Positions 1 through 64,000 of a stretch of DNA of 64,000 nucleotides are shown here, one piece after another. The notes beneath the pieces were generated by a model, which had not been told where the DNA came from, did no database searches, and saw only the letters and a list, made by a program, of their open reading frames with translations. Where the stretch lies: the NCBI RefSeq assembly GCF_001904745.1, contig NZ_MRCD01000015.1:62001-126000 (forward strand), written 5' to 3'. This DNA comes from Calothrix sp. HK-06 (GTDB lineage Bacteria; Cyanobacteriota; Cyanobacteriia; Cyanobacteriales; Nostocaceae). A program made the position numbers and the translations under genes. Position 1 is the stretch's first letter; every line of letters starts with the position of its first letter.

Positions 1-746
1 GGCTGTATGCCATACAACGAAGATAATAATTTATCTAGTAACCACGGTGACGTTGGTGTTAGTAATAAAAATAGTAATACTAAAAATGTTGTTGGATCTT
101 GGTATAAAAACTGTATTGGTTCAAGAAATGGCAACCAGACTAAAGTGTTATTTATAGTTGACGTTATAAAAACGATTATTATTTGTACTACCCAAAACAA
201 AGCTACAAAACTTCCAGCCGTTAATAATCGTAATGGAATTAAATCGAGTTTTTTCTCTTGCCAAGTTTTTGCACGTCCACTCCGGCGCCAATGAATTGTT
301 GGTAGCTTATTTATTTTAACTGGTACTATGCTACTATTATATTCATGATTATCATGATTTGGTATATTATTTGGTGAAATTATAGTTTCGTTGATATTTG
401 GTTTAGAATCATTAAAATCTTCAAATGGGACAAAACCTGTACCCGAATCTTCGATACGCGCGTTAATATCGGTACGATTACGTTTGAGTAACTCTTCTAA
501 CGAACGGTTAGCCCATTCTTGAATTTCAGGGTTATTACTTTGGGCAAGAATCTCAGAAAGAGTCATGGCGCCTGCAATATCACCTGTTTTTGCATATACT
601 ACAACTAAACCAATTTGGGCTTGGACTGCGCGTTGCGGGTTATCGTCCATTGCAACAGTTTCCAAAATCGTCTTAGCTGTTTCCCAATCTTCACTTTTAA
701 CAGCTTCTAACCCTGCTTCTAAAGAAGTCTTTGAATCTCTTGACAT
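1..746 (-). CDS. M48-type metallopeptidase, N-terminal TPR/membrane part (partial, runs off left edge)
   Basis: The minus strand has an open frame from an ATG at 746 to the window edge (about 248 codons, no stop). The translation starts MSRDSKTSLEAGLEAVKSED and shows a TPR-like helical N-terminus (residues 5-90). A low-complexity linker follows, then a W-R-x-S/A-x-R-A-K-x-W segment, then two hydrophobic stretches (about residues 165-190 and 210-230). This arrangement matches cyanobacterial M48 (HtpX-like) peptidases with an N-terminal TPR region and membrane anchor. The HExxH catalytic domain would lie outside the window, so the assignment rests on recall of that family's N-terminus. It lies 53 bases downstream of prfC on the same strand and could be cotranscribed. 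No clear ribosome-binding site was seen. Confidence 0.7.
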   Translation of the reverse strand, partial: MSRDSKTSLEAGLEAVKSEDWETAKTILETVAMDDNPQRAVQAQIGLVVVYAKTGDIAGAMTLSEILAQSNNPEIQEWANRSLEELLKRNRTDINARIEDSGTGFVPFEDFNDSKPNINETIISPNNIPNHDNHEYNSSIVPVKINKLPTIHWRRSGRAKTWQEKKLDLIPLRLLTAGSFVALFWVVQIIIVFITSTINNTLVWLPFLEPIQFLYQDPTTFLVLLFLLLTPTSPWLLDKLLSSLYGIQ

Positions 747-799
747 AACGAGTTTAATATCGCTTGAAGTTGAAGGAATGGGGAATATTCCCCACTCCA

Positions 800-2428
800 T
801 CACGCCTGAACTGATGGTTGTATTGAAGTTACTGGTGCAATTGCACTCAATATTAACTCTGGATGGTCGCCTATAAGTTGCTGGCAGTTCCACTCATTGC
901 GGAATAATAGAACTGGGCGCCCCATACTATCTTTTACAGTAGTGGTATTAAACAAGCGTCCAACTTTTTCAAGTGCTTCCCAACCGTTAGTAACCCAACG
1001 AGCCACACTGTAAGGTAGTACATCAAGAGTAGTTTCTACACCATACTCGTTTTGTAAGCGGAACTGTACGACCTCAAATTGCAACTGACCAACAGCAGCT
1101 AAAATGGGGTCACGTTTGGCTTCATCGGTGGAATACATAATTTGCACCGCTCCTTCTTCGCGCAATTCAGAAACACCTTTTTGAAATTGCTTAAACTTAG
1201 AAGGATTTGGGTTTCGTAGATTTGCAAATAACTCAGGCGAAAAATAGGGTATACCTTCGTATTCTATTTTTTGTCCAGTATAAATTGTATCGCCAATGGC
1301 AAAAACTCCAGGATTATTTAAACCAATTACATCACCTGCATACGCTTCGTCTATAGACTCACGCTCTTGAGCAAACAGTTTTTGTGGACGTGACAACCGC
1401 ACAACTTTTCCTGTACGAGCGTGGTTTACCGTCATATCTTTTTCAAACCTACCCGTACAAACTCGGACGAACGCGATACGGTCACGATGTTTCGGATCCA
1501 TATTCGCTTGTAATTTAAATACAAATCCTGAGAATTCTGGATAAGTTGGTTCAATAGAACCAATATTGCTATCGTGCGAACCTGGTTTTAAAGCATACTC
1601 TAGAAAATTTTCTAGAAATAGCTCAACGCCAAAATTGGTCATGGCACTACCGAAAAACACAGGTGTCATTTTACCCGCGTGTACTAAATCTAAATCTAAC
1701 TCAGGTCCTACCCCATCGAGTAGTTCTAAGTCGTTTTTTAACTGGTAGTACAAATCTTGTTCGAGTAACTCTTCAATGCGGTTATCACCAAGGTCAATAA
1801 CTGTATCTTGGGCTTCGCGACTACCATGAGCGGTACGTTCAAACAAATGTATTTGCTGTTTAAAACGGTCGTATACTCCTTTAAACCTATCCCCCATACC
1901 AATGGGCCAGTTTACAGCATAAGTTTGTAGACCTAGCTCTTGTTCAATTTCATCGAGTAAATCTATAGGTTCGCGTCCTGGACGGTCGAGTTTGTTAACA
2001 AATGTAAAAATTGGAATTCCACGCAGTTTACAAACCTCGAATAACTTCCGCGTTTGTGGCTCTAGACCTTTGGCGACATCTATTAACATTACTGCGTTAT
2101 CAGCAGCCGCTAAAGTTCTATAAGTATCTTCGCTGAAATCTTGGTGTCCTGGTGTATCTAACAAATTGATTTGACAATTGCTGTACTCGAACTGTAACAC
2201 CGTTGAGGTAATAGAAATACCCCGTTGTTGTTCCATTGCCATCCAGTCTGATGTTGCTTTGCGTTGCGAACGTCGAGCTTTAACGGCGCCTGCTTCGTGA
2301 ATAGCACCCCCGTACAGCAAGAGTTTTTCGGTCAGCGTTGTTTTTCCCGCATCAGGGTGAGAAATAATCGCAAAATTTCGGCGCCGTTCAACTGCTTGGC
2401 TAATTTCTGTCTGAAGTTCAGTTGACAT
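800..2428 (-). CDS. prfC: Peptide chain release factor 3
   Basis: RF3 is the translational GTPase that recycles RF1/RF2 from the ribosome after peptide release. The 542-aa protein has the G1 loop HPDAGKTT (residues 24-31), G3 DTPGH (91-95) and G4 NKLDR (145-149). EF-G-like domains II and III follow. Length is close to the usual ~530 aa, with a short cyanobacterial C-terminal tail. The ATG at 2428 gives a normal N-terminus ([20 protein letters not shown]). It probably forms a short transcription unit with the M48-type gene downstream. Confidence 0.97.
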
Positions 2429-2570
2429 AAATGTATTTGCTTGACTAATCCTAATTTAATTTAACTTTTTTGATTTAAGGCTGAACTTTTAATCTTAAAG
2501 CAACAACGCTCATGATAGGGTCTTAATAGCACGATTCCAATCGATTGTTGAGATGTGAGGAAGTAAACGG

Positions 2571-2912
2571 ATGTACGATACTGATAAACGCAAGGTGCTA
2601 TCAGCACTATGTCACGGCGCCATTTTTTTCAGCATGACATTAGTTTCTGTTGCCGTGCCTATTTTTATCACTTTTGTCACCAATGACCCAGTTGTTAGAG
2701 AAAATGCCAAAGAATCTATCAACTTTCATATAAATGTCTGGGTCTATGGATTTATTCTTGGCGTATTGATATCTATGACTTGGGGTGTACTAGTCCCTGT
2801 AGCGGGTATCGGCTTTATAATACATTGGGGTTTAACAATCTTGGCTTTATTCTATGTTTTGAGCGACACACGCAAACCTTTCCGTTATCCTTTAATCTTC
2901 CGTTTGGTCTAA
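2571..2912 (+). CDS. DUF4870 (Tic20-like) small membrane protein
   Basis: A 113-aa protein with three to four hydrophobic segments (about residues 15-35, 50-70 and 75-95). The motif RENAKESINFHINVW is typical of the DUF4870/Tic20-like family of small bacterial membrane proteins of unknown role. A good ribosome-binding site (GAGGAAG) lies about 8 bases before the ATG. It is divergent from prfC, with a 142-base shared promoter region. Assignment is by motif recognition; function is unknown. Confidence 0.8.
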   Translation: MYDTDKRKVLSALCHGAIFFSMTLVSVAVPIFITFVTNDPVVRENAKESINFHINVWVYGFILGVLISMTWGVLVPVAGIGFIIHWGLTILALFYVLSDTRKPFRYPLIFRLV

Positions 2913-3212
2913 ATTGTAACATCCGTCTAGTAATGATTGTTACTGCTTGCCATTAGTTTCTTTCAATGATGCTTCAGCTTTGACGACAGGGGCGTGTTTT
3001 GAGAACTTTTAATAACTTTTGCTTGCATAAATCAGATAAACTCTTCAAGCAATGTAAAATACAAAATTGCCCCACACTACCGGAGCAGCAATAGGGCAGA
3101 GGACAGTTAAGCGCTACATGTTAGTTTGCTTTACTGACGTACAATTCTGCCCTCAGTTTGTGACGCTTTGTTGATTGTCCATTATTCGCGCTTTGAGCAT
3201 TAATAAAAATTT
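2913..3212. other. Intergenic region before hemB
   Basis: 300 bases without a convincing gene. It contains a small dyad GGGCAGA (3094-3100) / TCTGCCC (3146-3152) that could form a long-looped hairpin. It presumably carries the terminator of the DUF4870 gene and the hemB promoter, but no clear -35/-10 pair was recognised. Confidence 0.4.
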
Positions 3213-4193
3213 ATGTTTCCCATCCATCGCCCTCGTCGTTTGCGTACTCATTCTCAATTACGCCGAATGGTACGTGAAACAGTTTTAACGACAAACGATT
3301 TAATTTACCCATTATTTGCTGTACCGGGCGAAGGAATAGCAAAAGAAGTTAAATCGATGCCAGGAGTCTATCAGCTTTCGGTTGATAAAATCGTAGAGGA
3401 AGCTAAAGAAGTTTATGATTTGGGAATTCCGGCAATTATATTGTTTGGGATTCCAGCGGATAAAGATGTTGATGCTACAGGGGCATGGCATGATTGTGGC
3501 ATGATACAAAAAGCTGCAACAGCCGTAAAATCAGCAGTTCCCGATTTGATAGTCATTGCTGATACCTGTTTGTGCGAGTATACAAATCATGGTCATTGTG
3601 GTTACTTGCAAGTTGGTGACTTAAGCGGAAGGGTGCTTAATGACCCTACATTAGAGTTATTAAAGAAAACAGCCGTATCTCAGGCCAAAGCTGGTGCCGA
3701 CATTATAGCTCCTTCGGGAATGATGGATGGTTTCGTGCAAGCCATTCGTAGTGGTTTAGACGAAGCTGGTTTTATTGACACACCAATATTATCCTACGCA
3801 GCAAAATACGCATCAGCATATTACGGCCCATTCCGTGATGCCGCAGAGTCGGCGCCACAATTTGGCGACCGTAGAACATATCAAATGGACCCAGGTAACG
3901 CGCGTGAAGCGATAAAAGAAATTCAACTTGATGTTGCTGAAGGCGCCGATATGCTAATGGTAAAACCAGCATTATCGTACATGGATATTATTTGGCGTGT
4001 AAAAGAAGCCAGTAACCTACCAGTTGCAGCATACAACGTCTCTGGTGAGTACGCGATGGTAAAAGCTGCCGCCTTAAACGGTTGGATTGACGAACAGCGT
4101 GTAGTCATGGAAACCTTAACCAGCTTCAAACGCGCAGGTGCAGACTTAATACTGACTTATCACGCCAAAGACGCAGCACGCTGGCTAAGTTAA
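3213..4193 (+). CDS. hemB: Delta-aminolevulinic acid dehydratase (porphobilinogen synthase)
   Basis: HemB condenses two 5-aminolevulinate molecules to porphobilinogen, the first pyrrole of haem, chlorophyll, phycobilin and cobalamin synthesis. The 326-aa sequence carries the catalytic Schiff-base lysines in [17 protein letters not shown] (Lys198) and [11 protein letters not shown] (Lys251). The metal site is the cysteine-rich zinc type: [14 protein letters not shown] with Cys119, Cys121 and Cys129, not the aspartate-rich magnesium type of plants. Length is normal. It stands alone on the plus strand between two intergenic regions. Confidence 0.97.
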
Positions 4194-4211
4194 AAGTTTA
4201 AAGTGCTGAGT

Positions 4212-4238
4212 GTAGAGACGTAATTAATGCGTCTCTAC
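4212..4238. repeat. GTAGAGACG palindrome (dispersed repeat, likely hemB terminator)
   Basis: Perfect 9-bp inverted repeat GTAGAGACG / CGTCTCTAC around a 9-base loop, 19 bases after the hemB stop. Related palindromes occur at 5063-5092, 41573-41624 and 48838-48869, always close to a gene 3' end. It therefore looks like a dispersed palindromic family that may double as a transcription-terminating or mRNA-stabilising hairpin. Confidence 0.7.
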
Positions 4239-4527
4239 TGGTACGGTTGTGTAGGGATGTAGTTAATTACATCTTCACACAAGCGTACCCCTTTTTATAT
4301 ATTTCGTGAGTTAGAAACTACTTACACTGTTTGCAGATGACAGTGCAATCGTATATGAAATAATATAGGTAAATACAACATTTCAATTTGCGATATTCGC
4401 CAATAGTTGTTTCTATAGAACATCTGCTGGCATATATTGGCATGTGTCGCCTTTGTGCTGCGGATGCTTGTTAATTTATAGTTTTCAATTTAAGCTAGGT
4501 AATATCCGAAGCTTTAAAATAAACTAT

Positions 4528-4552
4528 GTAACTATCCTAATGAGATAGTTAC
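4528..4552. promoter_or_regulatory. Perfect 9-bp dyad upstream of XRE gene (possible operator)
   Basis: GTAACTATC - 7 bases - GATAGTTAC, a perfect 25-bp dyad 80 bases before the start of the XRE-family gene. A second small inverted repeat (GGCTA/TAGCC, 4560-4577) follows. The spacing suits an autoregulatory operator for a dimeric HTH protein, but a hairpin in the leader mRNA is equally possible. Confidence 0.4.
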
Positions 4553-4632
4553 TTAAAATGGCTAGAAGCAAATAGCCTTGAATTGAAAGTGGAATCAGGT
4601 AAATCTATATTAGTAAAAGGGAGCATTGAGAT

Positions 4633-4941
4633 ATGGATATGCAAGTTCTGAGAGAACGGGCAGGGTTAAGTCGTGCGGAAGTAGCCTTCAGACTTGCAAT
4701 CAGCGAAACCAGTGTTCGTAACTGGGAAGCTGGACGTACTGAACCGACCATGACACCAAAGAAATATTTAGACGCGCTGCGATTATTTAAATGCACCCCC
4801 GAAGAATTAGCAGCAGCAAGCGAAAAATCTATTAATCAACGACATAAGCGCAAACCTGGAAGACCAAGGCGTTTTCCTGATACTCAAATCAGCCAGGTAC
4901 CACAAACTATGGCTTTGACTGATACCCCTGTTTTGTACTAA
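4633..4941 (+). CDS. XRE-family helix-turn-helix regulator
   Basis: 102 aa. Residues 4-55 form a Cro/C1-type HTH: ERAGLSRAEVAFRLAIS, then a recognition helix ETSVRNWEAGRTEP. The tail is basic and proline-rich (KRKPGRPRRFPDT), an AT-hook-like patch. Similar short one-domain HTH proteins are common in filamentous cyanobacteria and their targets are unknown. A GGGAG ribosome-binding site precedes the ATG. It is monocistronic, with a possible operator dyad upstream at 4528-4552. Confidence 0.85.
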   Translation: MDMQVLRERAGLSRAEVAFRLAISETSVRNWEAGRTEPTMTPKKYLDALRLFKCTPEELAAASEKSINQRHKRKPGRPRRFPDTQISQVPQTMALTDTPVLY

Positions 4942-4974
4942 TACTCCATTGTTATTAATTTTTGATCAGATGTG

Positions 4975-4995
4975 GCACAGGCATTCTGCCTCTGT
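4975..4995. repeat. GCACAGGCA...TGCCT palindrome copy
   Basis: GCACAGGCATTCTGCCTCTGT is an imperfect palindrome related to copies at 29328-29349, 35491-35512 and 63490-63510. It lies in the gap between convergent genes and is followed by a CCACAGAGACACTGAG-type stretch resembling that near 31790. Confidence 0.55.
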
Positions 4996-5062
4996 AATAA
5001 GTATATTTATCTTTACCACAGAGACACTGAGTACACCGAGAGAAGAGAGTAAAATCACATAT

Positions 5063-5092
5063 TGTAGAGACGTTACATGTAACGTCTTTACA
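5063..5092. repeat. TGTAGAGACGTTAC palindrome (dispersed repeat, likely coaR terminator)
   Basis: Near-perfect 30-bp palindrome TGTAGAGACGTTAC / GTAACGTCTTTACA with one mismatch pair, ending at the last codon of coaR. It is the same family as 4212-4238 and probably forms the hairpin at the coaR 3' end. Confidence 0.65.
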
Positions 5093-6202
5093 TTACGTAT
5101 TTTTTAGATAACAATGGCAATGAGGCTTCTCAATTAATGATTCAATTAGCGCATTTAATGCCACTGCTGCAAGTAATCCACCACCATTTATACCTACAGT
5201 TGTAATATACTCAACACCAGAACGTATCAGGCGCCGTTTTGCAGCAGGTGCATGACTAAAACCAATTGGCATTCCAATAATTAAAGCTGGCTCAAGTTGC
5301 TTTTTCTCAACTAAATTACAAATTGATATTAAAACCGATGGTGCATAACCTACTATTAATATACATCCTGGAGTTGCCTGCTGTAATTTTTCTTGCCATT
5401 TTATCGATGAACAGTATTCTTGTTCAACTTCTGTAAAACTGGTAATATGAGGGTCATCGATAAGAGTGGTAACTTTGGCACCTAGATGTGCAGCACGAGC
5501 TTGGTCAATACCAGCACAGACTGCTGGAACGTCAACAATAATTTCACATTTATTTTGAATAGCACTGCGACTTGATGCAATTGCGTTTTGACTCCAACGT
5601 ACAAAGTCTACTAAACTAACATCACCAGAAGCTATTACTAACTTTGATAATAAATCTACTTCTATTTGTGAACGTGCAGGTAATGGTAGTAACTGCTGCA
5701 ATGATTCATTAAAGTTTTCAGGATGAGCATCAGTTGCTGCATCCAAACCATCCCAAAGTTGCTCGAGCTGTTCCAAAGAAGCACTGGTTTCGACTTCTAA
5801 CTGTTGTAATTGTAACAACGCTTCAGTTTGCACGTTTAAACACGAATGGTCTCTACCCAATAAACCTTCGAGTGCGCTTGCTGTTTGCCGCAGTCTAGTT
5901 AATTGCTGCATCACCGACCGATATTGTTGCTGTAAACTATCAAGTAAATCATTGCTCAACGGCGCCTTTGAGCCAGGTTGTAGTAATTTATGAATATGGT
6001 CAAGTTGGAAACCTTGCGATTTGAGAGCTACAATTCGTCGCAAGTGCAAAATGTCTTTGTCTGTATATAAACGATAATTACCTTGAGACCTAGATGCTTC
6101 TGGTAGTAGTCCTAGTTTATGATAGTGTCTCACCATCCTTGGAGTTAAACCACCACCTACTAATTCCGTTAATTCTTTGATTGTTAAGTTTTGCGCGCGC
6201 AT
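5093..6202 (-). CDS. coaR: CoaR-like cobalt-sensing MerR regulator with precorrin-isomerase domain
   Basis: 369 aa. Residues 5-75 are a MerR-type winged HTH (TPRMVRHYHKLGLLPEASR, YRLYTDKDILHLRRI). A coiled-coil helix follows (about 75-140). The C-terminal ~200 residues resemble precorrin-8X methylmutase (CbiC/CobH): DVPAVCAGID, GYAPSVL and IGMPIGFSHAPAAKRRL. It ends in a Cys-His-Cys motif (362-364). This exact architecture, including the terminal CHC, is that of Synechocystis CoaR, a dual-effector activator of the cobalt exporter gene coaT. In Synechocystis coaR and coaT are neighbours. Here coaT lies about 1.5 kb away, divergently oriented, beyond decayed genes. A ribbon-helix-helix gene ends only 2 bases upstream, so the two are probably one transcript. 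Confidence 0.92.
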   Translation of the reverse strand: MRAQNLTIKELTELVGGGLTPRMVRHYHKLGLLPEASRSQGNYRLYTDKDILHLRRIVALKSQGFQLDHIHKLLQPGSKAPLSNDLLDSLQQQYRSVMQQLTRLRQTASALEGLLGRDHSCLNVQTEALLQLQQLEVETSASLEQLEQLWDGLDAATDAHPENFNESLQQLLPLPARSQIEVDLLSKLVIASGDVSLVDFVRWSQNAIASSRSAIQNKCEIIVDVPAVCAGIDQARAAHLGAKVTTLIDDPHITSFTEVEQEYCSSIKWQEKLQQATPGCILIVGYAPSVLISICNLVEKKQLEPALIIGMPIGFSHAPAAKRRLIRSGVEYITTVGINGGGLLAAVALNALIESLIEKPHCHCYLKNT

Positions 6203-6204
6203 GT

Positions 6205-6423
6205 TTAATTTATTTGACGTTCTTTCTCTCTTGATAAGTATTGATTGAGTGCCTCACGTATTAAATCAGGCACAGTACACTGCTTATCTTCGGCTAACTT
6301 CTTAAGTTCTTCTTTGACTTCTGGATATACTTGTGCTTTTACTTGCTCACTTAATGGCATATCTCTACCATAATTTAACCTGTATTTTGTACCGAAATCT
6401 GGATTTCCCCCAACTCTTGACAT
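6205..6423 (-). CDS. Ribbon-helix-helix (CopG-like) small protein
   Basis: 72 aa. The C-terminal half (LSEQVKAQVYPEVKEELKKL, CTVPDLIREALNQYLSREKE) reads as a beta strand plus two helices, the ribbon-helix-helix DNA-binding fold of CopG/Arc-type regulators and antitoxins. The N-terminus NPDFGTKYRLNYGRD is typical of a cyanobacterial group of such proteins. Its stop is 2 bases before the coaR ATG, so the two are likely cotranscribed. No toxin partner is visible. It could be a solitary regulator or what remains of an accessory cassette. Confidence 0.7.
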   Translation of the reverse strand: MSRVGGNPDFGTKYRLNYGRDMPLSEQVKAQVYPEVKEELKKLAEDKQCTVPDLIREALNQYLSREKERQIN

Positions 6424-6560
6424 GCCATATTCCTCTTTAATTCTCTAATAAATTATACCGCGACACTCACTAACCTAACTTGAATAAATAATTATTTCTA
6501 TTAGTAAAGTACGCTACTATTATGCTATTGTATGAAAATCCATTTTGTCAGGGTTCTACT

Positions 6561-7265
6561 ATGGGTGTTTATTACAACTTCAAAAATGCTGGGACTTCAG
6601 TTTTCTTACGAGAATCTCAAACACCATACATTAAAAATAAATTTATTAAGCCTGAAGTAACACCCCCCAAATCTGTAGAAGAGTTGTCATATGATGAACA
6701 GCGTGAGCGAGAACGCTTGGAAAAAACAGGTAGAACGGTCATTTTATGAAGCAGGACGCTCGTTAAAAATTCTTAGAGATAGCGCGCCTTATATCGCAGT
6801 AGTTATGACACTTTCGAGGAGTACTGTAGACATCGGTTTGGATATAATCGCTCCCGGTCATATCAACTTATGGATGCAGCAACTGCTGTGGACATTCTTG
6901 GAGAATGTCCACAATTTGTGGACATTTTACCAACTGCCGAAGGACAAGTTCGACCGTTAACAAAGCTTGAACCCAAAGAATTACAAGAATGTTGGTCATC
7001 TGCGGTGAAAGTTGCAGGGGGGAAAGTGCCATCTGGCAAAATCGTTAAAAGTATTGTGGACAAAATTCGAGAACGAACAAAAATACCTATACCCTATTCT
7101 GAAGGTGAAGCTTGTATAATTATTTCTAAAGATAATCCTGACCTTAGAGGTAAAAATGGGCATTGGTGCATTGTTACCAATGTGCATGAGTTTAGCTGTC
7201 AAGTCTGCTCTCTAAAACTTACTCAAACCTATCTACTTTCAAGATTCAATAGATTCAACGTTTAG
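6561..7265 (+). pseudogene. ParB-like plasmid-type protein, frameshifted pseudogene
   Basis: One ancestral frame is split into three. Frame A (from ATG 6561) ends DEQRERERLEK. Frame B continues with QVERSFYEAGRSLKILRDS. After about 6790 frame C gives FEEYCRHRFGYNRSRSYQLM, then ILPTAEGQVRPLTKLEP, GGKVPSGKIVKSIVDKI and KDNPDLRGKNGHWCIVT. Joined, these match the order of a cyanobacterial protein family common on plasmids and in mobile regions (RLYR.TH.TFEEYCRxRFG ... RPLTxLEP). At least two frameshifts (about 6730 and 6785-6800) break it and the C-terminus looks lost. Family placement is from recall and a search would settle it. It sits between coaR and coaT. Confidence 0.7.
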
Positions 7266-7371
7266 TTCTTGCTTCAATCTAGGGAGTCGGCTCCTTCTAG
7301 TCCACAAGCGTTTTCCCATTTTTATGGCCTTCAACTGCAAGCCACGGTCACTACGATATCTATTCATGTCT

Positions 7372-7406
7372 AAGAGTGAAAATCTTTATTTAAGCACTCT
7401 TTTTTC
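7372..7406 (+). terminator. Hairpin with T-run after the ParB-like pseudogene
   Basis: AAGAGTG (7372-7378) and CACTCTT (7395-7401) are perfect 7-bp arms around a 16-base loop, followed by five further T's. This resembles an intrinsic terminator for plus-strand transcription from the pseudogene. Confidence 0.5.
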
Positions 7407-7409
7407 TAG

Positions 7410-7569
7410 AAAGAAGCAAAACAAATTACTGAAGATGAACGGGTTATCATTTTGTCTGAAAGAGATGCTGAGAAGGTATTTAGCTTGATTGAAAATCCTC
7501 CTGAACCATTGGGAGCGACTAAAAGCAGCAATAAAGAAGCATAAGGAATTTTTGAATAAGAGCAATTGA
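7410..7569 (+). pseudogene. DUF1778 (TacA-like) antitoxin remnant
   Basis: After a stop at 7407-7409 the frame reads EAKQITEDERVIILSERDAE, then KVFSLIENPPEPLGAT. This is the C-terminal core of DUF1778 antitoxins (VLSERDAExFxxLLENPPxP). Near 7525 the frame shifts by one. The continuation AAIKKHKEFLNKSN ends at 7569 and restores the expected tail. The N-terminal ribbon-helix-helix part is missing. No GNAT toxin gene follows, so this is a decayed toxin-antitoxin locus. Confidence 0.7.
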
Positions 7570-7696
7570 ATAACTGGTAAGTTTTATGATTTTTCTTGTG
7601 GGGTAGGCATCCGAAGCTGCCCTGGATATTGGAACTACATTAGAACGGGCAAGGATGCCCATTCCACAAGGGATTTTATTTTCTAAATTAAAAAGC

Positions 7697-7728
7697 TTGA
7701 CATTGACATTAATGTCAAGGTTTAGGGT
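7697..7728 (+). promoter_or_regulatory. MerR-type coaT operator-promoter
   Basis: A -35 TTGACA (7697-7702) is followed at 20-bp spacing by a -10-like TAGGGT (7723-7728). Between them lies a perfect 16-bp palindrome TTGACATTAATGTCAA (7703-7718). An over-long 19-20 bp spacer filled by a dyad is the hallmark of MerR-family activated promoters, and fits activation of coaT by CoaR. The coaT ATG is 32 bases downstream. Confidence 0.75.
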
Positions 7729-7760
7729 GAGTAGAGGAAATATATTGCTCTACCACTGTT

Positions 7761-10255: not shown

Positions 10256-10270
10256 AATTGCTAGTTGTTA

Positions 10271-10324
10271 GTGCGTGACGCTAGAAGAATTATTATATTG
10301 AAATTTGTTGTTAGCGTCACGCAC
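10271..10324. repeat. 54-bp inverted repeat GTGCGTGACGCTA
   Basis: Perfect 13-bp arms GTGCGTGACGCTA (10271-10283) and TAGCGTCACGCAC (10312-10324) around a 28-base AT-rich loop. A palindromic repeat of this kind is common between genes in filamentous cyanobacteria. Confidence 0.75.
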
Positions 10325-10353
10325 CCTACTTTTATGCATCTTTGGATACATTT

Positions 10354-10469
10354 AGGACTTACGCAAAGAAACCTGGTTTCTACGCATTCATTGTCGCAGA
10401 CAAATCGCCATTTTTATTACATGATATCAACGTATATTCCAGGTTTCTAGGTTTTCATGCGTAAGTCCT
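10354..10469. repeat. MITE-like element with 12-bp terminal inverted repeats
   Basis: A 116-bp element bounded by AGGACTTACGCA (10354-10365) and TGCGTAAGTCCT (10458-10469). Inside is a second inverted pair of the GAAACC(C/T)GGTTTC family and the string ACGCATTCATTGTCGCAGAC. A nearly identical motif appears in reverse sense within the 14259-14339 element. It carries no coding capacity and looks like a small non-autonomous mobile repeat. Confidence 0.7.
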
Positions 10470-10499
10470 GACATTAATGAAATTAGATAAGGTGAAATT

Positions 10500-11403: not shown

Positions 11404-11415
11404 ATTTAAGTAATT

Positions 11416-53130: not shown

Positions 53131-53150
53131 CAAACATCGCCATTACCGTA

Positions 53151-53234: not shown

Positions 53235-53261
53235 AACATTCAAACATCCCCTTTAGCACAA

Positions 53262-53699: not shown

Positions 53700-53722
53700 A
53701 TGTAATCATCTTAGGTGATGCA

Positions 53723-56263: not shown

Positions 56264-56281
56264 CTCAGCACGAGCGCACTT

Positions 56282-58270
56282 TTAACTTAAATACTTAACT
56301 AGGACTGACTCTAATTGAAAAATACCGATAGGTTTGCTCAAACAGTCCACAGCACCTGCTTGTAAAAATCTTTCCCTATCCCCCATTCCCATTGTTGTCA
56401 TCACAACTACAGGAATTTCTTGTAAACCTTGCTGTCGCTTTAAACTTATTAGTAAATCAAGTCCGTTTACATCTCCAGGTAAATGCACATCAAGTAAAAT
56501 TAAATTGGGTTTAAATATATGAACTCGTGTAATAAATCTTTCTGCTGTCAGCATTAATTCGACTTCATAGCCTATTGTTTGTAAGTAATCTTGCACTAAT
56601 ATAGCTGTATGTCCATCGTCTTCTACTAACAAAATGCGTTTAACAGCTTGTCCTGAAGATGTATTTGGGTAAACATAATCTTTATGTGCTGAATCTGATT
56701 CCAATGTTACATCAGGAACTGAGTCATTTTGCACATTGCTTTGTTGCGGTTGTGCTGGTAGTAATAAAGTAAACCTACTTCCTACACCTAAAGTTGATTC
56801 TACCGTCAAATCCCCACCATGTAAACGCGCCAGCTTTCGTGTTAATGCTAATCCTAAACCAGTACCTTCATACTGGCGATTAAGTTGATTATCAAGTTGC
56901 CTAAATGGTTCAAACAATGATTGAAAATTGCTAGGTTCTATACCTATACCAGTATCAGTAACAATAAATGCAATTCCATGCTCTACTTGTTTTACTTCTA
57001 ATGATATTGTACCGGATTGAGTAAACTTAATTGCATTTGTTAATAAGTTTAACAGCATTTGCTTGAGGCGCCGTTCATCTGCTATACAAGTTTCTAAACC
57101 TGTTTCTATATTATCGACAAGTTGTAACTTTCTGATATTCGCACTTTCTAACACTGTTGAAATAACGTTTCTGACAATATCGGATATAGATAAAGAAATC
57201 AATATCAATTCTTCTCTACCCGCTTCGACTTTCGACAAATCTAAAATATCATTAATTAATGCAAGCAAATGTTCACCGCTTGTATATATACAATTAATAT
57301 ACTCATGCTGCTTCTCATTTAATGTCCCTACCACTTCTTGCTGAAGTAATTGTGATAACCCCATAATTGCATTTAAAGGAGTTCGTAGTTCATGACTCAT
57401 AGTAGCTAAAAAAGCACTTTTTGCCTTACTGCCAGCTTCAGCAGCTTCTTTACTTTCTCTAAGTTTTAATTCAGTTCTTTTACGTTCTGTAACATCTTCA
57501 ACCATTGCCAGAAAAAAACTTGCCTCGTTCGTTGTAGTGTTAACTAAAGAAACATTAAGATGTGCCCAAACTAAGCGACCATCTTTATGTAAAAACTGTT
57601 GCTCCATTTCAAAGCGTTCTTGACTATTTGTAAACAATTGATAATTTAGCTTAGTTTGTGCCGTAATATCTTCTTCACAAATAAAATCTACTAACTCTTT
57701 AGAGCAAAGTTCTTTGTAGTTATACCCTAATATATGGCAAAGCGCGGGATTTACATCAATTATCCGTGCGTTCATATCTAATAAACCTATTCCAATCGAA
57801 GAACGCTCAAAAATAGCTCTTAACTGCGCTTCATTTTTGGATAAAAACTTTAATGATCTTGAAGAGCGTTGTTCAACAGCACGTAATAAAGTACGTCGTA
57901 AAGATTGTGGAGTTATCTCACTTTTAATTAAATAATCATCTGCTCCTGCTGCAATTGCTCTTTGTAACAGATTTTCATCATCCTTATCACTTATCACAAT
58001 AATTACTATGTTTGTATTAAATGCATTTATCAGTTCTATATAATCTAAATCAGAAATATTATTGAAATATAAATCTAATATAACAGCATCAATATTGAAA
58101 TTCATATTTTCTAATATTGATAAAATGTTACTAAAATTATTGTCTTTTTCTATAATCTCTATGTAACTATTGGCGCCTGCTTGTTCAAAAATATCTTCCA
58201 ATTTATTAGATTGGGTGCGAGAATTTTCAACGCTAGCAAACAGTATTATTTTTATTGGTTGATACACCAT
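56282..58270 (-). CDS. Hybrid histidine kinase (REC-PAS-HisKA-HATPase-REC)
   Basis: 662 aa from the ATG at 58270; a TTG at 58303 is the alternative. Order: a divergent N-terminal receiver (DAVILDLYFN, ending DDYLIKSE), a PAS domain with PAC (ERSSIGIGLLDMNARIIDVN ... DVTERKR) and a phosphoacceptor H-box SHELRTPLNA. An ATPase domain (NLLTNAIKFT, DTGIGI, GTGLGLALTRKL) and a C-terminal receiver (LLVEDD, Asp in LILLDVHLP, Lys in CLSKPIG) complete it. No membrane segment, so it is a cytosolic sensor; signal unknown. The orientation converges with the GT39 gene. Confidence 0.92.
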   Translation of the reverse strand: MVYQPIKIILFASVENSRTQSNKLEDIFEQAGANSYIEIIEKDNNFSNILSILENMNFNIDAVILDLYFNNISDLDYIELINAFNTNIVIIVISDKDDENLLQRAIAAGADDYLIKSEITPQSLRRTLLRAVEQRSSRSLKFLSKNEAQLRAIFERSSIGIGLLDMNARIIDVNPALCHILGYNYKELCSKELVDFICEEDITAQTKLNYQLFTNSQERFEMEQQFLHKDGRLVWAHLNVSLVNTTTNEASFFLAMVEDVTERKRTELKLRESKEAAEAGSKAKSAFLATMSHELRTPLNAIMGLSQLLQQEVVGTLNEKQHEYINCIYTSGEHLLALINDILDLSKVEAGREELILISLSISDIVRNVISTVLESANIRKLQLVDNIETGLETCIADERRLKQMLLNLLTNAIKFTQSGTISLEVKQVEHGIAFIVTDTGIGIEPSNFQSLFEPFRQLDNQLNRQYEGTGLGLALTRKLARLHGGDLTVESTLGVGSRFTLLLPAQPQQSNVQNDSVPDVTLESDSAHKDYVYPNTSSGQAVKRILLVEDDGHTAILVQDYLQTIGYEVELMLTAERFITRVHIFKPNLILLDVHLPGDVNGLDLLISLKRQQGLQEIPVVVMTTMGMGDRERFLQAGAVDCLSKPIGIFQLESVLVKYLS

Positions 58271-58390
58271 GCTTTTCACCAACGGAACAATAGTATAAAG
58301 CAATTTAGAAATTATGTTAATATTTCTTCATTAAAATAATTTGTCGATAAACAGATAGTATCAATAATTACATGAAAACTATATTACTCC

Positions 58391-58406
58391 AAGAAACCGG
58401 GTTTCT
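58391..58406. repeat. Solo AAGAAACCGGGTTTCT palindrome
   Basis: A single 16-bp arm of the paired-palindrome family, in the promoter region between the divergent hybrid kinase and cobalamin-binding gene. The second arm is missing. Confidence 0.6.
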
Positions 58407-58531
58407 AGGATTTTGATAGTACTCCGGCGCCACAGCTTGATATTTTTGAAGTAACATGCCTGAAGAAAGATATACAAGAGATATAATTTTGGCACAATTA
58501 AATAAATAATAGCTGTCGTGGAGGTGTTGCA

Positions 58532-59461
58532 ATGAAGGAAAGCGTTAGAATCGTATCGCTAATTCCTAGTGGTACAGAAATACTGGCTTCACTCGGACTT
58601 ATAGACAAAATTGTTGGCAGATCCCACGAGTGCGACTATCCAGAAGAAGTGCAAAATCTTCCTGTTTGTACCCAAGCACGACTGAATACAAATGCTCAGA
58701 GTCAAGAAATTCACTCAGAAGTCAATAATTTGCTACAAAATGCTCTGAGTATTTACCAAATTAAAACAGATATTTTAGAGAAATTACAGCCTACTCACAT
58801 TGTGACTCAAGACCAATGCGATATTTGTGCTGTCAGTTTGAACGATGTAGAGAAAGCAGTTGCAAACTTAACCAATAGTCCACCAAAAATTATTTCCCTA
58901 CAACCCAATGTTCTTAAAGATGTTTGGACCGATATTGAAAATGTAGGACATGTGTTCGATGTTGATTCGCTCAAAGTTATTGAAAATTTAGAAGCGCGCG
59001 TTAAAATAGTTCAACAACGTACTAAAGGTCTTTCTGCGACTGAAGTGTTACCAAGTGTGGCATGTATTGAATGGACAGACCCACTAATGGTAGCTGCAAA
59101 CTGGATTCCAGAATTAGTTGAATTAGCTGGTGGAAGACCATTATTTGGTGTAACGGGTCAAGACTCTACTCAACTAAAGTGGGAGAATTTGATAGAAAGT
59201 AACCCAGATATAGTTATTTTCATGCCTTGTGGATTTGATTTGAATCGAACTCGAACAGAAACGCAGCTACTTATAAGTCGTCCCGAATGGCAAAAATTAC
59301 ATTGTGCCAAATCTGGAAGAGTCTATATTACAGATGGAAATGCTTACTTTAACCGTCCTGGTCCAAGGTTAGTTGAGTCGTTAGAAGTTCTAGCTGAAAT
59401 ATTACACCCAGAGATATTCCAATATGGCTATAAAGGAAAAGCCTGGGATGTTTTACAGTAA
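58532..59461 (+). CDS. Cobalamin-binding (BtuF-like) protein without signal peptide
   Basis: 309 aa. A periplasmic-binding-protein fold of the BtuF/FecB class: RIVSLIPSGTEILASLGLID at the start, GRSHECDYPEEV, LQPTHIVTQDQCDICAVS, PELVELAGGRPLFG and ESNPDIVIFMPCGFD. There is no signal peptide or lipobox and no ABC permease or ATPase gene nearby, so it may act in the cytosol (corrinoid or haem binding) rather than in import. GGAGGTG precedes the ATG. Ligand is inferred from family naming only. Confidence 0.85.
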   Translation: MKESVRIVSLIPSGTEILASLGLIDKIVGRSHECDYPEEVQNLPVCTQARLNTNAQSQEIHSEVNNLLQNALSIYQIKTDILEKLQPTHIVTQDQCDICAVSLNDVEKAVANLTNSPPKIISLQPNVLKDVWTDIENVGHVFDVDSLKVIENLEARVKIVQQRTKGLSATEVLPSVACIEWTDPLMVAANWIPELVELAGGRPLFGVTGQDSTQLKWENLIESNPDIVIFMPCGFDLNRTRTETQLLISRPEWQKLHCAKSGRVYITDGNAYFNRPGPRLVESLEVLAEILHPEIFQYGYKGKAWDVLQ

Positions 59462-59525
59462 ACGCAAGTTGGTTACGCGCTTCGCGTAACCCAACAATTA
59501 ACTCATAGCTCCTAAATCTTAACTT

Positions 59526-59834
59526 TTAACTTAAGTTTTGACTTACTGCTGCGGTATTAACCCATTCAATTAAAGGTTTTAAGTTATTTGGAACAGCGGA
59601 TTCACCGACACTTACAGTATGAGTTTCTCCGTTGTTTTCTACTGTTAAACGATAAAAAAAACTATCTGGTTTAGGGGAAGATGAATCGATATAATCAGGC
59701 AAGTTATAAAAATCTGAGTCTTGCAGTAGTTGCGGAAGTTGCTTTGCTGTCTCTTGGGGAATAGCTGTTGTATCAACTTTTGTGGTTTTTGACATACCAG
59801 CGAAGCCACCAGTACGCTCTAAATAAACTCGCAT
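59526..59834 (-). CDS. Emfourin-like protealysin inhibitor
   Basis: 102 aa. It begins MRVYLERTGGFAGMSKTTKV, the N-terminal R-x-GGFAG pattern of emfourin (M4in), a small protein inhibitor of protealysin-like M4 metalloproteases. The rest (FYNLPDYIDSSSPKPDSFFY, RLTVENNGETHTVSV) fits the ~100-aa inhibitor fold. It lies 107 bases downstream of an M4 protease gene on the same strand, as in known protealysin-emfourin operons. No signal peptide, like its protease partner. Confidence 0.87.
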   Translation of the reverse strand: MRVYLERTGGFAGMSKTTKVDTTAIPQETAKQLPQLLQDSDFYNLPDYIDSSSPKPDSFFYRLTVENNGETHTVSVGESAVPNNLKPLIEWVNTAAVSQNLS

Positions 59835-59941
59835 ATTATATAATGACAGTGTTTTATGATAAAAAACTGGGAAGATAGGTTCATTATCTCCCAGCTAAAT
59901 AACACAAAGCAAACACAATAATAAAATTTAGCAATTCTGAC

Positions 59942-61033
59942 TTATTTTAGAGATACACCTACTTGTTCCCATGCATTTTGTACAGCTTTTTGTTCGTTGC
60001 TGCCTTCTCCATAAAGTTCTGCTGCAACTTGAGATATCAGAAGTGCAGCACTTTTAAAATCTGAACTTGAACGAAGACGGTCACGCAAAGCGATATACCA
60101 AATTTTTCCTGCTTTTTCCCAAGCATAACCACCAATAGCTGTTGCCGCTAGATAAAATGCTCTGTTGGGAATTCCAGAATTAATGTGTACTCCACCATTA
60201 TCCTTGATGCCAGAGTAAAGGTCTTTGTAGTGTGCAGGTTGAGGGTCTTTGCCTAAAACAGGGTCATCATAAGCTGTTCCAGGTTCTTTCATCGAACGAA
60301 TGCCAACACCCTTAACTTTTTCGGTAAATAAACCCTCACCAATAATCCAATCTGCTTGGTCTGCGGTTTGTTTTTTCACCCATTGTTTAACTAAGGTGCC
60401 AAAAACATCTGACATTGACTCATTCAAGGCGCCTGATTCACCAAAATACTTAAGACTAGCTTCACATTGCGTTACACCATGCGTTAACTCATGAGCTATA
60501 ACATCTATACATTTAGTAAAACGCTGAAATATTTCGCCATCACCATCACCATACACCATTTGGTCGCCATTCCAAAAAGCGTTATCGTACTTTACGCCAT
60601 AATGTACAGTTGAATCAAGACGTAAGCCTTTATCATCAATTGAGTTACGCTCTAATACCTCGTAGTAAAAATCGTAAGTCGAACCTGCTGAGTCATACGC
60701 TTCGTTTACTGCTTCGTCGCTACTTGGTGGGTCTCCTTCTGCACGTACCAGTTTACCTGGAAGTAGTTGCATTGTTGCTGCATCATATACAGTACGGCGT
60801 TTTTCTCCAGGTGATACCGCAAAATTGACGTTACCTACAACTCGGCGCCGTCCACGAAATTCTGATGATAAATTTAATGTATGAAATGCCCAGTCACGCA
60901 TTTGCTCACTACCGTTAACCACTAAATTTTCCAGCATGTGTGGTGGAACAACACAGTAGATAGAGCAATATGTATTATTTTTATGCTTTTGGCACCCAAT
61001 CCAACCAAATCCTAATTTTTTACTTTTAGCCAT
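59942..61033 (-). CDS. Protealysin-like M4 metalloprotease
   Basis: 363 aa. A short protealysin-type propeptide (residues 1-62) carries the inhibitory PPHML motif (30-34). The thermolysin-like domain has HELTH (181-185), zinc ligand Glu205 in GALNESMSD and catalytic His283 in NGGVHINSGIPN. No signal peptide, as in protealysins. The propeptide has extra cysteines (Cys14, Cys23, Cys27). The downstream emfourin gene supplies a dedicated inhibitor. Protease-inhibitor pairs of this kind have been linked to bacterial interactions with other cells; the role here is open. Confidence 0.93.
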   Translation of the reverse strand: MAKSKKLGFGWIGCQKHKNNTYCSIYCVVPPHMLENLVVNGSEQMRDWAFHTLNLSSEFRGRRRVVGNVNFAVSPGEKRRTVYDAATMQLLPGKLVRAEGDPPSSDEAVNEAYDSAGSTYDFYYEVLERNSIDDKGLRLDSTVHYGVKYDNAFWNGDQMVYGDGDGEIFQRFTKCIDVIAHELTHGVTQCEASLKYFGESGALNESMSDVFGTLVKQWVKKQTADQADWIIGEGLFTEKVKGVGIRSMKEPGTAYDDPVLGKDPQPAHYKDLYSGIKDNGGVHINSGIPNRAFYLAATAIGGYAWEKAGKIWYIALRDRLRSSSDFKSAALLISQVAAELYGEGSNEQKAVQNAWEQVGVSLK

Positions 61034-61168
61034 TTGATTAAATTCTCCTTATAATCCAAACTCAATTAACAGCCTGATTTTAGGCACAGGTGTCCCCTAA
61101 TACCAAGCTTCGGTTAGAAAACGTAATTATAAACTTGACCTTAACTGGCCGCCTGGGGGTCAGACCCA

Positions 61169-62650
61169 TCAGTGTAAAAGTCTTTTCTTCAAATCATCAT
61201 ATTTATCTTGACTAAGACGATATACCTCTGGTTGAGGTTTTCCAACTAAATGCCCTTGGATATAACTAACACCGACTTCCCTAAGTGAGCGTAAGCTAAT
61301 AGGTGTAGTTTCATCAATTCCTTCTACAATAACTTTAGCTGGGTTCAAATTATTTGCTCCAACTAAATCGTGAACAAAGCGGATAATAATATCGCTAGAA
61401 TGGTTATAAAGAAGTTCACGGTCAATTTTAACGTGGGATGGATTTAAACCTGCTAATCTTGATACAGAAGCATAACCAACACCAAAATCATCGATCGCAA
61501 AGCGAATTTTGAGTTTGCTTACATATTCTATTAATTGATTTTTAAAATTTTGAAGTGGATTTTTTAATCTTATTCCATCAGCCAATTGTGGTAAATCTGT
61601 TTTTTCAGAAATTTCTAAAACTAAATTTCTTGGGGATATTACTTTATCTTTAATGATTTTTCTTACGGTTTCAAAATATTCCATTCGCATTAACGACTCT
61701 GGGTAAACATTTACTGATAAAGGAACAACTTCACCTGCACGTCTTTGCACTGATTTCCGAGCATGACGATAACGTTCTGTTGCGACATCTAGAAAATGCT
61801 GGTCAAGCACAACGGTAAAATTAGAACCCCATAGCTCTGCTGCTGTAAATAAATCTGAAGGCACCATATGGTTTTTAGGATTGCGTGCTAAAGCTTCCCA
61901 ACCACTTATAAATAAATCCTCTGGTTCAATATGTAAAACTGGCTCAAAATACATCACCATTTGTTTTAACCGCTGACTAAATAGGTCAAATCTTCTGTGA
62001 TATAATGATGATGATACAAAGCCATAATTAAATTTTAAGCTATCTAATATACTTGCTTCAAGGAGTTCGGCTTCGTTATATAATAAACTAGCTTCATAAA
62101 AACTCGAAATAATTTTACCGAATACTTCTGTTAAATATTCAGATACAACTAATCCATAGACTACCATTATCTCAGCTTTAGGTACTGTTTTAATAGGTAA
62201 TGCTATAAATACTTTTAAGGCGCCTTGATTATCATTGTACCTACTATATATACCGAATTGGGCTGGATTAAAAATATACTCGTCATTAATTACAGGTAAA
62301 ATGCTATGAGTTATAACATCTTCACAATCTTTTGCTTCTATCTCAGTAGAATTACTTTGCGACTTAACACCCCAAGTTAATTGATGATTTTCAAGTATAA
62401 AACAATTGGAGGCGCCTGAAGCAGCAACAATAGCATTAAGGGCTGTAATTGATGCACTCGAATGGGCATTCGATTTAAATTTAACAATCAATTCATCAAT
62501 AAAGTCTTCGTAATACTCTAAATGGCTATGTAAATATTTAGGTTGCTGGTTAAAAATACTTACCTCTTCTGATTCGTCAAGAAAGTCTAATCTTATATTA
62601 CCCAAATCTTTTTCACCTGTAGACTGTTGAGAATGTTGCAATTGATTCAT
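61169..62650 (-). CDS. EAL-domain protein (c-di-GMP phosphodiesterase-like) with GAF-like N-terminus
   Basis: 493 aa from the ATG at 62650 (GTG 62671 possible). Residues ~60-210 look like a GAF-type sensor (SASITALNAIVAASGASNCF). The C-terminal EAL domain keeps GWEALAR, the Asn in SVNVYPESL, LVLEISEKT, AIDDFGVGYASVSRL, VKIDREL, VEGIDE and IQGHLVGKP. Most catalytic metal and base residues are thus present, so it probably hydrolyses c-di-GMP. Cytosolic; signal unknown. Confidence 0.87.
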   Translation of the reverse strand: MNQLQHSQQSTGEKDLGNIRLDFLDESEEVSIFNQQPKYLHSHLEYYEDFIDELIVKFKSNAHSSASITALNAIVAASGASNCFILENHQLTWGVKSQSNSTEIEAKDCEDVITHSILPVINDEYIFNPAQFGIYSRYNDNQGALKVFIALPIKTVPKAEIMVVYGLVVSEYLTEVFGKIISSFYEASLLYNEAELLEASILDSLKFNYGFVSSSLYHRRFDLFSQRLKQMVMYFEPVLHIEPEDLFISGWEALARNPKNHMVPSDLFTAAELWGSNFTVVLDQHFLDVATERYRHARKSVQRRAGEVVPLSVNVYPESLMRMEYFETVRKIIKDKVISPRNLVLEISEKTDLPQLADGIRLKNPLQNFKNQLIEYVSKLKIRFAIDDFGVGYASVSRLAGLNPSHVKIDRELLYNHSSDIIIRFVHDLVGANNLNPAKVIVEGIDETTPISLRSLREVGVSYIQGHLVGKPQPEVYRLSQDKYDDLKKRLLH

Positions 62651-63248: not shown

Positions 63249-63489
63249 AACATGGAGGCTTAATAATTACTCCACTAAACTTAGATGTTTAGCTCTTAGC
63301 TAGACTTTATCCATTTTTATGCGACGTTCTAAACGTAGGCTGAAACCTTTATGGGACAGTAGTTTTACTTTTTCGATGGAGAGCGTAAACTAGTGACATT
63401 GAAAAAGTTTTTGCCGTCATCTAGGTTTTTTGCCGATAAAGGAAACAAAGTTTTTAATTTTGGATAAAGTCGAGTTTAGATATAACATT

Positions 63490-63510
63490 GCACAGGCAAG
63501 ATGCCTGTGC
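63490..63510. repeat. GCACAGGCAAGATGCCTGTGC palindrome
   Basis: Perfect 21-bp palindrome with a 3-base centre (GCACAGGCA-AGA-TGCCTGTGC), the best copy of the family also at 4975, 29328 and 35491. It lies 33 bases beyond the tRNA-Ser 3' end and may terminate its transcript. Confidence 0.7.
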
Positions 63511-63542
63511 TACAAGTCAATTACAATAGATTGTATAAATTC

Positions 63543-63628
63543 GGAGAGAGAGGGATTCGAACCCTCGTTAAAGTTTCCCCTAAACAACATTTCCAGTGTT
63601 GCGCCTTCAACCACTCGGCCATCTCTCC
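63543..63628 (-). tRNA. tRNA-Ser (anticodon GGA)
   Basis: Minus-strand sequence starts GGAGAGATGGCCGAGTGG and ends GGTTCGAATCCCTCTCTCTC plus C. The acceptor stem GGAGAGA/TCTCTCC pairs fully. The anticodon stem CAACA/TGTTG encloses CTGGAAA, giving anticodon GGA (reads UCC/UCU). The long variable arm is typical of serine tRNAs. 86 nt, with CCA not encoded. Its 3' side faces the integrase remnant. Confidence 0.96.
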
Positions 63629-63732
63629 AAGATGCCACAAGTTAATACTATACAATTGAAATTGAAAAACTGCAATAATATTTTGACTGAAATGCAAAAA
63701 TTTCTATAAATCGCCCAAAACTCAAGATTACA

Positions 63733-64000
63733 ATGTCGCAAAAACACACTATTACGGTACATGACCGCCAAAAAGGCGTTACTCATACCTTTCAGGTTCC
63801 CGATGACCGTTATATTCTTCACACTGCTGAACATCAAGGTAACTCGCTACCGTTTTCTTGCCGTAACGGCGCCTGTACAACTTGTGCGGTGCGTGTATTA
63901 TCAGGAGATATTCATCAGCCAGAGGCAATAGGTTTATCGCTGGAGCTACAAAACAAAGGTTATGCTTTGTTATGTGTTAGCTATGCACGCTCTGATTTGG
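63733..64000 (+). CDS. Plant-type [2Fe-2S] ferredoxin (partial, runs off right edge)
   Basis: 89 codons visible. Cys43, Cys48, Cys51 and Cys81 (CRNGACTTCAVRV ... LLCVSYA) give the CX4CX2CX29C spacing of plant/cyanobacterial photosynthetic-type ferredoxins. The start (SQKHTITVHDRQKGVTHTFQ) is more divergent than PetF, so this is likely one of the minor ferredoxins, an electron carrier between photosystem I or reductases and unknown partners. The stop lies beyond the window. Confidence 0.9.
   Translation, partial: MSQKHTITVHDRQKGVTHTFQVPDDRYILHTAEHQGNSLPFSCRNGACTTCAVRVLSGDIHQPEAIGLSLELQNKGYALLCVSYARSDL

Follow-up and report, generated by a model that had tools for sequence, protein, structure and literature searches.

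The hexamer GGCGCC recurs throughout a 64 kb stretch of the genome of Calothrix sp. HK-06, hereafter the window, and is abundant in every genome of the genus that was sampled. With a probability of roughly 0.68, we regard GGCGCC as an alternate highly iterated palindrome (HIP) that was inherited from the ancestor of the genus, is accompanied by an orphan 5-methylcytosine (m5C) methyltransferase, decays by deamination and is renewed by biased restoration. GGCGCC was reported as an alternate HIP in Calothrix PCC 7103 and D253, with the same loss of the HIP1 word as we find in the genus (Elhai 2015, PMC4390886). In one strain of the genus the alternate HIP had thus been described before; what is new is its genus-wide spread, and, relative to the PCC 7103 report, the evidence on maintenance of the word is also better. 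A literature search, with coverage of subscription journals mostly lacking, found no later paper that treats GGCGCC as a HIP.

The window holds 102 copies of GGCGCC, where base composition predicts 3.05 and an order-2 Markov model 4.0; in 100 order-2 Markov simulations of the window the mean was 3.75 and the maximum 8. The original prediction, made from the letters of the window, that the word occurs throughout it far above expectation is thus borne out (102 against about 4), as is every start quoted for the seven copies in a gene called coaT (7795, 8019, 8103, 8480, 8694, 8724 and 9210). GGCGCC is the top palindromic hexamer of the window, followed by GCGCGC with 17 copies, and AGGCGCCT and TGGCGCCA occur 22 and 7 times. 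A maximal-order Markov model gives an expectation of 52.6 and is uninformative as a control because the five-letter parts of the word arise mostly from GGCGCC itself. Nor is the word near expectation in the HK-06 genome as a whole (G000; 9,990,453 bases in 243 contigs), which has 15,449 copies, or 1,546 per Mb, against 6 of the reversed word CCGCGG. As a control for GGCGCC, CCGCGG misleads where it is itself avoided; since it is depleted in HK-06, we prefer the order-2 Markov ratio of observed to expected counts (O/E), a fairer measure than the GGCGCC/CCGCGG ratio. This is 25.7 in the window and 22.8 in 420 kb of congeners, so that a GC-rich palindrome is grossly over-represented relative to composition, as an alternate HIP should be. 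Composition or codon bias as the source of the word can be virtually discounted. Within open reading frames (ORFs), which contain 86 of the 102 copies (frames 47, 16 and 23), 47 of the 86 are read in frame as Gly-Ala, as codon bias might have it, but O/E values of 23-26 refute such an origin, and eight of the nine classes of one-letter neighbours of GGCGCC in congeners are below expectation (0.18-0.64). The sole class above expectation is GGTGCC/GGCACC, the deamination product (O/E 1.68).

Words were counted in 192 genomes of the family (7 of the genus and 185 others) and 386 of the phylum, 43 of them in both sets, giving 535 distinct genomes, 528 of which lie outside the genus. The genus sample consists of HK-06 and six relatives, namely Calothrix PCC 7103 (G115), Dulcicalothrix desertica PCC 7102 (G127), Calothrix PCC 7716 (G138), Calothrix NIES-4105 (G101) and two Calothrix metagenome-assembled genomes (G076 and G030). 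All seven contain 7,475-20,380 copies of GGCGCC at 1,150-1,711 per Mb (about one per 600 to 900 bases), the density near one per kb that marks an alternate HIP, whereas the other 185 family genomes have at most 1,053, the maximum occurring in a genome with 1,270 CCGCGG. The alternate HIP is therefore a clade character of the genus and not a sporadic one. Outside the genus, 22 of 528 genomes exceed 1,000 GGCGCC per Mb, with GGCGCC/CCGCGG ratios of 1.2 to 5.0; the ratio in the genus, where CCGCGG is depleted, is above 1,800. No second independent GGCGCC lineage was found in the 386 phylum genomes. Among candidates, G395, the most promising (2,493 GGCGCC, 38 CCGCGG), was rejected on a 33 kb sample with 8 copies observed against 7.1 expected and CGATCG in excess, and the copy-rich G259 on a 41 kb sample of 55% G+C with an O/E of 2.2. 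Genus g22 and G022, seemingly enriched relative to CCGCGG, proved to be under expectation in samples (O/E 0.28-0.75).

HIP1 (GCGATCGC) is at or near background in the same seven genomes. Neither GCGATCGC, whose absence had been noted, nor GCGATCG occurs in the window, and the stray CGATCGC noted near 61490 is a single copy starting at 61492. Abundant GCGATCGC elsewhere in the genome would have refuted a replacement of HIP1; HK-06 has only 88 copies, about 9 per Mb, against 66 of the reversed word, and across the genus there are 31-163 copies (3.6-22.6 per Mb) against 37-75. The density of 14.1 per Mb in G115 agrees with the 14 published for PCC 7103 (PMC4390886). These counts support the view that GGCGCC is an alternate HIP standing in place of HIP1. 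Outgroup genomes suggest what may have been lost: CGATCG is in excess in all three checked of five (O/E 6.8-7.7), and all five carry one family of C5 methyltransferases with 46-70% mutual identity, on a reading of 30 of the 45 matches. Among the methyltransferase stretches read in the genus, the best full-length match to this family is 35% identical; beyond short motifs there are fragments of about 105-165 aa with 40-47% identity in G101, G030, G138 and G127, possibly remnants. PCC 7103 was reported to have a truncated CGATCG methyltransferase (PMC4390886), and the CGATCG enzyme that was lost may have belonged to the outgroup family. Of the few GCGATCGC still present in the genus, some cluster in GGCGCC-poor stretches (L215, at G115:C7:640000-659999, L217, L219 and L220). 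The final 6 kb of L215 has six HIP1 and no GGCGCC, these stretches having been selected for HIP1, and L218 has both words in one bin; the clusters are possibly recent imports from HIP1 cyanobacteria.

The evolution of individual sites, that is, their alignment, decay and restoration, was followed in the single 64 kb region across the seven genomes. The window aligns over 54-60 kb to four congeners (94% identity), 55 kb to G101 (85%) and 24 kb to G076 (80%). In all six comparisons GGCGCC is more conserved than the pooled other hexamers with at least five G/C, at 0.88 against 0.67 in G127, 0.73 against 0.38 in G101 and 0.45 against 0.20 in G076. The sites conserved in all aligned genomes number 40 of 132 for GGCGCC, 0 of 12 for other GRCGYC forms and 16 of 227 for other palindromic NNCGNN. 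Private losses among the five close genomes amount to 37, of which 16 became GGTGCC, 9 GGCACC and 12 something else; 21 have G101 in agreement, 16 of these being GGTGCC or GGCACC. Per site, change from C to T at the third position (9/229, 3.9%) and from G to A at the fourth (8/229, 3.5%) exceed the 1.6% at other CpG, while the remaining four positions of the word account for 6 events altogether. For most comparisons at window GGTGCC/GGCACC, the relative has GGCGCC at the matching place. Loss is mainly C-to-T at the central CpG, as deamination of a methylated central C predicts, the numbers being small, and this spectrum suggests that GGCGCC is methylated in vivo.

A simple count of gains and losses is biased on a near-star tree, where a T state of short duration seldom becomes the consensus, and a three-state likelihood model (GGCGCC, its TG or CA derivative, other) was adopted for this reason. 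Conditioned on at least one GGCGCC, it was fitted to 132 GGCGCC sites and 4,808 control NNCGNN characters. The rates for GGCGCC and control were 2.8 and 1.4 for C to T, 27.5 and 2.1 for T to C, and 1.6 and 3.2 for C to other; fixing T to C at the control rate costs 11.4 log-likelihood units (lnL) and fixing it at zero 19.4. The T-to-C rate of GGCGCC ranged over 17-36 (5-95%) in 25 bootstraps and over 17.9-19.8 under other root frequencies, compared with 1.9 for 860 GC-flanked controls (to which GGCGCC can be fixed at a cost of 9.9-12.6 lnL) and 2.7 for 227 other palindromic NNCGNN characters. The other GRCGYC forms, with 12 characters, were below the number needed for a fit. According to the model, GGCGCC would be restored some 8-14 times faster than in the two main CpG control sets.

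This rate bears on the proposal that GGCGCC was mass-produced in an ancestor and is now simply decaying. The 37 private losses against no private gain, and the near-zero gains from states other than TG/CA, are what a relic would leave, but zero restoration carries the penalty of 19.4 lnL, and even the control rate that of 11.4. Moreover, where G127 has GGCGCC, the longer branch to G101 shows the TG/CA state in 8/101 cases, compared with 17/113, 18/100, 13/104 and 7/107 in the four close genomes; the derivative state does not accumulate. We judge a relic improbable. Equally improbable, in our view, is a Vsr endonuclease that returns T to C by very-short-patch repair. Such repair has been proposed for CCWGG in E. 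coli, and T:G repair fits the spectrum and direction seen. A solitary m5C methyltransferase is paired with a Vsr-like protein in Caulobacter (PMC12907096). Against this, the Vsr family PF03852 was found in none of the seven genus genomes, with 5 of 14 named controls positive, Vsr-like proteins beyond PF03852 not having been searched for. Spread of GGCGCC as a DNA-uptake word through biased natural transformation would look alike, since it too could give 1 to 2 copies per kb and restoration from donors. It is nonetheless very hard to credit, as known uptake words are longer than GGCGCC, a 6-base palindrome with variable flanks and no fixed extension. The term HIP1 does appear in a paper on uptake words (PMC1939737).

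The preferred reading calls for a methyltransferase able to modify GGCGCC. Matches to PF00145 number 10 in HK-06 and 89 in the genus; the methyltransferase stretches first read gave 60 ORFs in 14 clusters, two of which, CL0 and CL1, are present in all seven genomes. CL1 (370 aa) was rejected as the cause of the word switch, being found in 146 of the 192 family genomes overall. CL0 is a C5 methyltransferase by its PF00145 matches, and the PCQ, ENV and QxRxR sequences, which we take to be C5 methyltransferase motifs, are invariant in 14 aligned proteins (six syntenic genus copies, one extra HK-06 copy and seven from outside). It occupies one conserved locus, with a 313-335 aa copy and common neighbours, as judged by ORF starts, in six genus genomes; by the domains scanned in one genome, it lies between a RuBisCO-like gene and a gene that has S-layer and glycosyl-hydrolase-like domains. 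In HK-06 the gene is interrupted by the ends of contigs C29 and C207, beside the same neighbours, residues 1-87 and 209-313 being seen. Invariant residues make up 119 of 313 overall and 27 of 39 in the stretch 209-247, which, lying where we would expect the recognition domain, is presumably a conserved recognition stretch.

BsaHI and HgiDI belong to one family with the putative HindVP enzymes; the target of BsaHI is GRCGYC, in which M.BsaHI methylates the central C (Neely and Roberts 2008, PMC2413257). CL0 is accordingly a GRCGYC-type gene by homology, and is predicted to recognise GRCGYC, a wider target than GGCGCC. Of 185 genomes outside the genus, 54 have relatives of CL0 with E 1e-30 or better, 44 of them at full length and 10 as partial, broken or, in one, distant matches only. 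At 12 of 20 such loci fetched, the adjacent gene is of one family, in some cases in pieces, and all three of these scanned are RE_HindVP (PF09519), a domain found in 42 of the 192 family genomes, 39 of which also carry a whole or partial CL0 homologue. The seven genus genomes have no RE_HindVP, and for this reason we call their CL0 an orphan. Of the predicted orphan methyltransferase for GGCGCC, then, a C5 gene without the usual endonuclease, at one locus and in 7/7 genomes, was found; its exclusive specificity was not, since CL0 is predicted to act on GRCGYC. No methyltransferase limited to GGCGCC was identified in the search of genus C5 enzymes (PF00145), N4-cytosine methyltransferases not having been searched for.

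Pairing of the methyltransferase with the endonuclease goes with avoidance of GGCGCC. Among genomes outside the genus, the 22 that have both a full methyltransferase and an intact endonuclease show a median density of 0.73 per Mb. The median is 0.81 where the endonuclease is partial (12 genomes), 15.0 where the methyltransferase stands alone (10) and 4.55 where both are missing (129); a further 12 genomes, partial in other combinations, were excluded. Without correction for kinship, pair-bearing genomes differ from those with neither at p = 0.0002 and from those with the methyltransferase alone at p = 0.007. In 80 kb of the pair-bearing G049, GGCGCC, GGCGTC and GACGTC all number 0, against 4.5, 7.6 and 3.2 expected, and GRCGYC totals 0 against about 15. 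This avoidance in relatives and the loss spectrum in the genus agree in suggesting that CL0 methylates GRCGYC at the central C. Of the GRCGYC forms only GGCGCC is enriched in congeners, where GACGTC has an O/E of 0.09 and GGCGTC 0.47. Given this scarcity and the conservation of 0/12 against 40/132 sites, it appears, as far as the numbers go, that only GGCGCC among the presumed targets of CL0 is rebuilt. Such an asymmetry is predicted by Elhai's rule that the methylated C be preceded by G (PMC4390886).

In the mechanism that we propose, a GRCGYC restriction-modification system would have lost its ancestral endonuclease, leaving an orphan m5C methyltransferase at a fixed locus. Methylated sites would then decay by C-to-T change at the central CpG, and GGCGCC, in which a G precedes the methylated C of either strand, would be turned back to C far faster than background; the outcome would be a see-saw between C and T at roughly 5:1 to 10:1. 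The sites are most likely restored by mismatch repair or gene conversion with a bias that depends on methylation, much as Elhai proposed, with direct selection on sites as the main alternative. A stronger version, which we put forward tentatively, is a methylation-coupled restoration drive operating genome-wide. In it, m5C at the central C would mark the strand to be kept, deaminated sites would go back to C even after fixation, and some 15,000 copies would be maintained over the life of a genus without regard to site function.

Alternatively, each GGCGCC might be kept by weak selection for a function in chromosome organisation, replication or gene control, methylation serving to read the sites and not causing their number. 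Selection would also give fast T-to-C restoration, the greater conservation of GGCGCC than of other hexamers (0.88 against 0.67 in G127) is in its favour, and there are weak signs of regular spacing: the coefficient of variation (CV) of the gaps is 0.75 in the window against 0.98 for random placement, seven of the ten aligned blocks have 0.71-0.90, and 19.7% of gaps are shorter than 200 bases, against 26.9% expected. The regularity seen in the window is weak in the pooled blocks: the ten together have a CV of 1.00, a value inside the range of 138 control hexamers, 63 of which do not exceed it, and three blocks have 0.99-1.20. Loss of a site is also unrelated to the distance of its neighbour (p = 0.21), the window sites lie mostly in ORFs (86/102) and use all three frames, and effective selection would be required at each of about 15,000 sites in one genome. 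We consider selection on site function rather unlikely. Repair or gene conversion is inseparable from selection with the present data, and the confidences that we attach to the preferred reading and its rivals overlap as a result.

Several observations weigh against an actively restored HIP with its own orphan methyltransferase. The absence of any private gain beside 37 private losses is one, and the case for restoration is model-based. Left free, the fit gave GGCGCC a root frequency close to 0, which is odd, fixed roots leading to the same conclusion. A small GC-rich set (82 characters) has the fastest T-to-C change of all controls; its rate of 4.4 compares with 18.8 for GGCGCC in that run and reduces the contrast to about fourfold. 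GGCGCC arises from states other than TG/CA at a rate of 0-0.33, compared with 0.66-0.81 in controls, and a site-creating ratchet is therefore not seen at work. The middle of CL0 in HK-06 (residues 88-208) is unseen in the assembly. Finally, ten outside genomes have the methyltransferase and no RE_HindVP, and the four of them that were sampled, all of genus g22, have GGCGCC under expectation (O/E 0.47 in 140 kb of G021 and 0.28 in 59.5 kb pooled from G070, G096 and G112), so that the median of 15.0 per Mb for a lone methyltransferase need not mean enrichment and absence of the endonuclease alone is insufficient for an alternate HIP.

Positions of the words in the window are collected in Table 1. 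Strong depletion (O/E 0-0.09) affects CCGCGG and RCCGGY words in the window and congeners alike, and GATC and GGCC are scarce in the window (16 each), which suggests further methylation or restriction pressures.

Table 1. GGCGCC and related words in the 64 kb window of Calothrix sp. HK-06.
Feature	Position	Strand	Remarks
GGCGCC sites (n = 102)	284..63873	.	across entire window; per 8 kb: 11, 15, 9, 11, 18, 13, 16, 9
Seven GGCGCC copies	7795..9215	.	in heavy-metal P-type ATPase ORF 7761-9695 (earlier label coaT)
GGTGCC/GGCACC sites (n = 27; 14 + 13)	3693..61865	.	candidate deamination products
CGATCGC, HIP1-like fragment (n = 1)	61492..61498	.	window without GCGATCGC

Further methyltransferase genes were seen in the genus. 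On G000:C60, HK-06 has a second CL0 gene (L013:7060-8046), 83% identical to the core copy of PCC 7103, and a partial one (L013:6008-6670). They lie near DnaB-like helicase and integrase-family genes, a setting that resembles a plasmid or phage-like element. On a 385 kb contig (L079, G138:C2:304000-313000), a CL0 copy split in two adjoins a homologue of DpdA (deoxypurine in DNA). The gene for a 658-aa C5 methyltransferase is flanked by pyrC and by the RuBisCO-like neighbour of CL0 in G000, G115 and G127 (L012, L051 and L052) and lies elsewhere in G101 and G076, with none in G030 or G138 among the matches listed; its 435-aa neighbour in G115 has no Pfam match.

The PCC 7103 and D253 case resembles ours in that GRCGYC-type methyltransferases are present and other GRCGYC forms depleted (PMC4390886). 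That report counted two GRCGYC methyltransferases in PCC 7103, where we find an orphan at a conserved locus, and gave the methylated base as known for no GRCGYC enzyme, whereas here both base and restoration are argued from data. HIP1 of most cyanobacteria is likewise a dense GC-rich palindrome tied to methyltransferases, but it is another word and goes with GATC and CGATCG enzymes (PMC4390886). With the BsaHI/HgiDI/HindVP family (PMC2413257) CL0 shares the presumed recognition stretch, and its homologues outside the genus often adjoin RE_HindVP; unlike those systems, the genus lacks RE_HindVP and has one target form enriched, not avoided. Caulobacter ScmA, found with VsrA, is also a solitary m5C enzyme with thousands of genomic targets, but its target differs and the genus has no PF03852 Vsr (PMC12907096).

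The same report described exceptional HIPs as sporadic and not clade-forming, arising often while only HIP1 persists, and used this to infer selection for HIP1 (PMC4390886). The genus-wide presence of GGCGCC contradicts the argument that only HIP1 persists. A genus that has swapped its word is a natural experiment on why HIP sequences exist, since it allows lineages with HIP1 and with GGCGCC to be compared in word, enzyme, mutation route and restoration. If the restoration drive is real, HIP1 would be a further case of it, based on a different methyltransferase, and the word that a cyanobacterial lineage carries would depend on which orphan methyltransferase it has kept.

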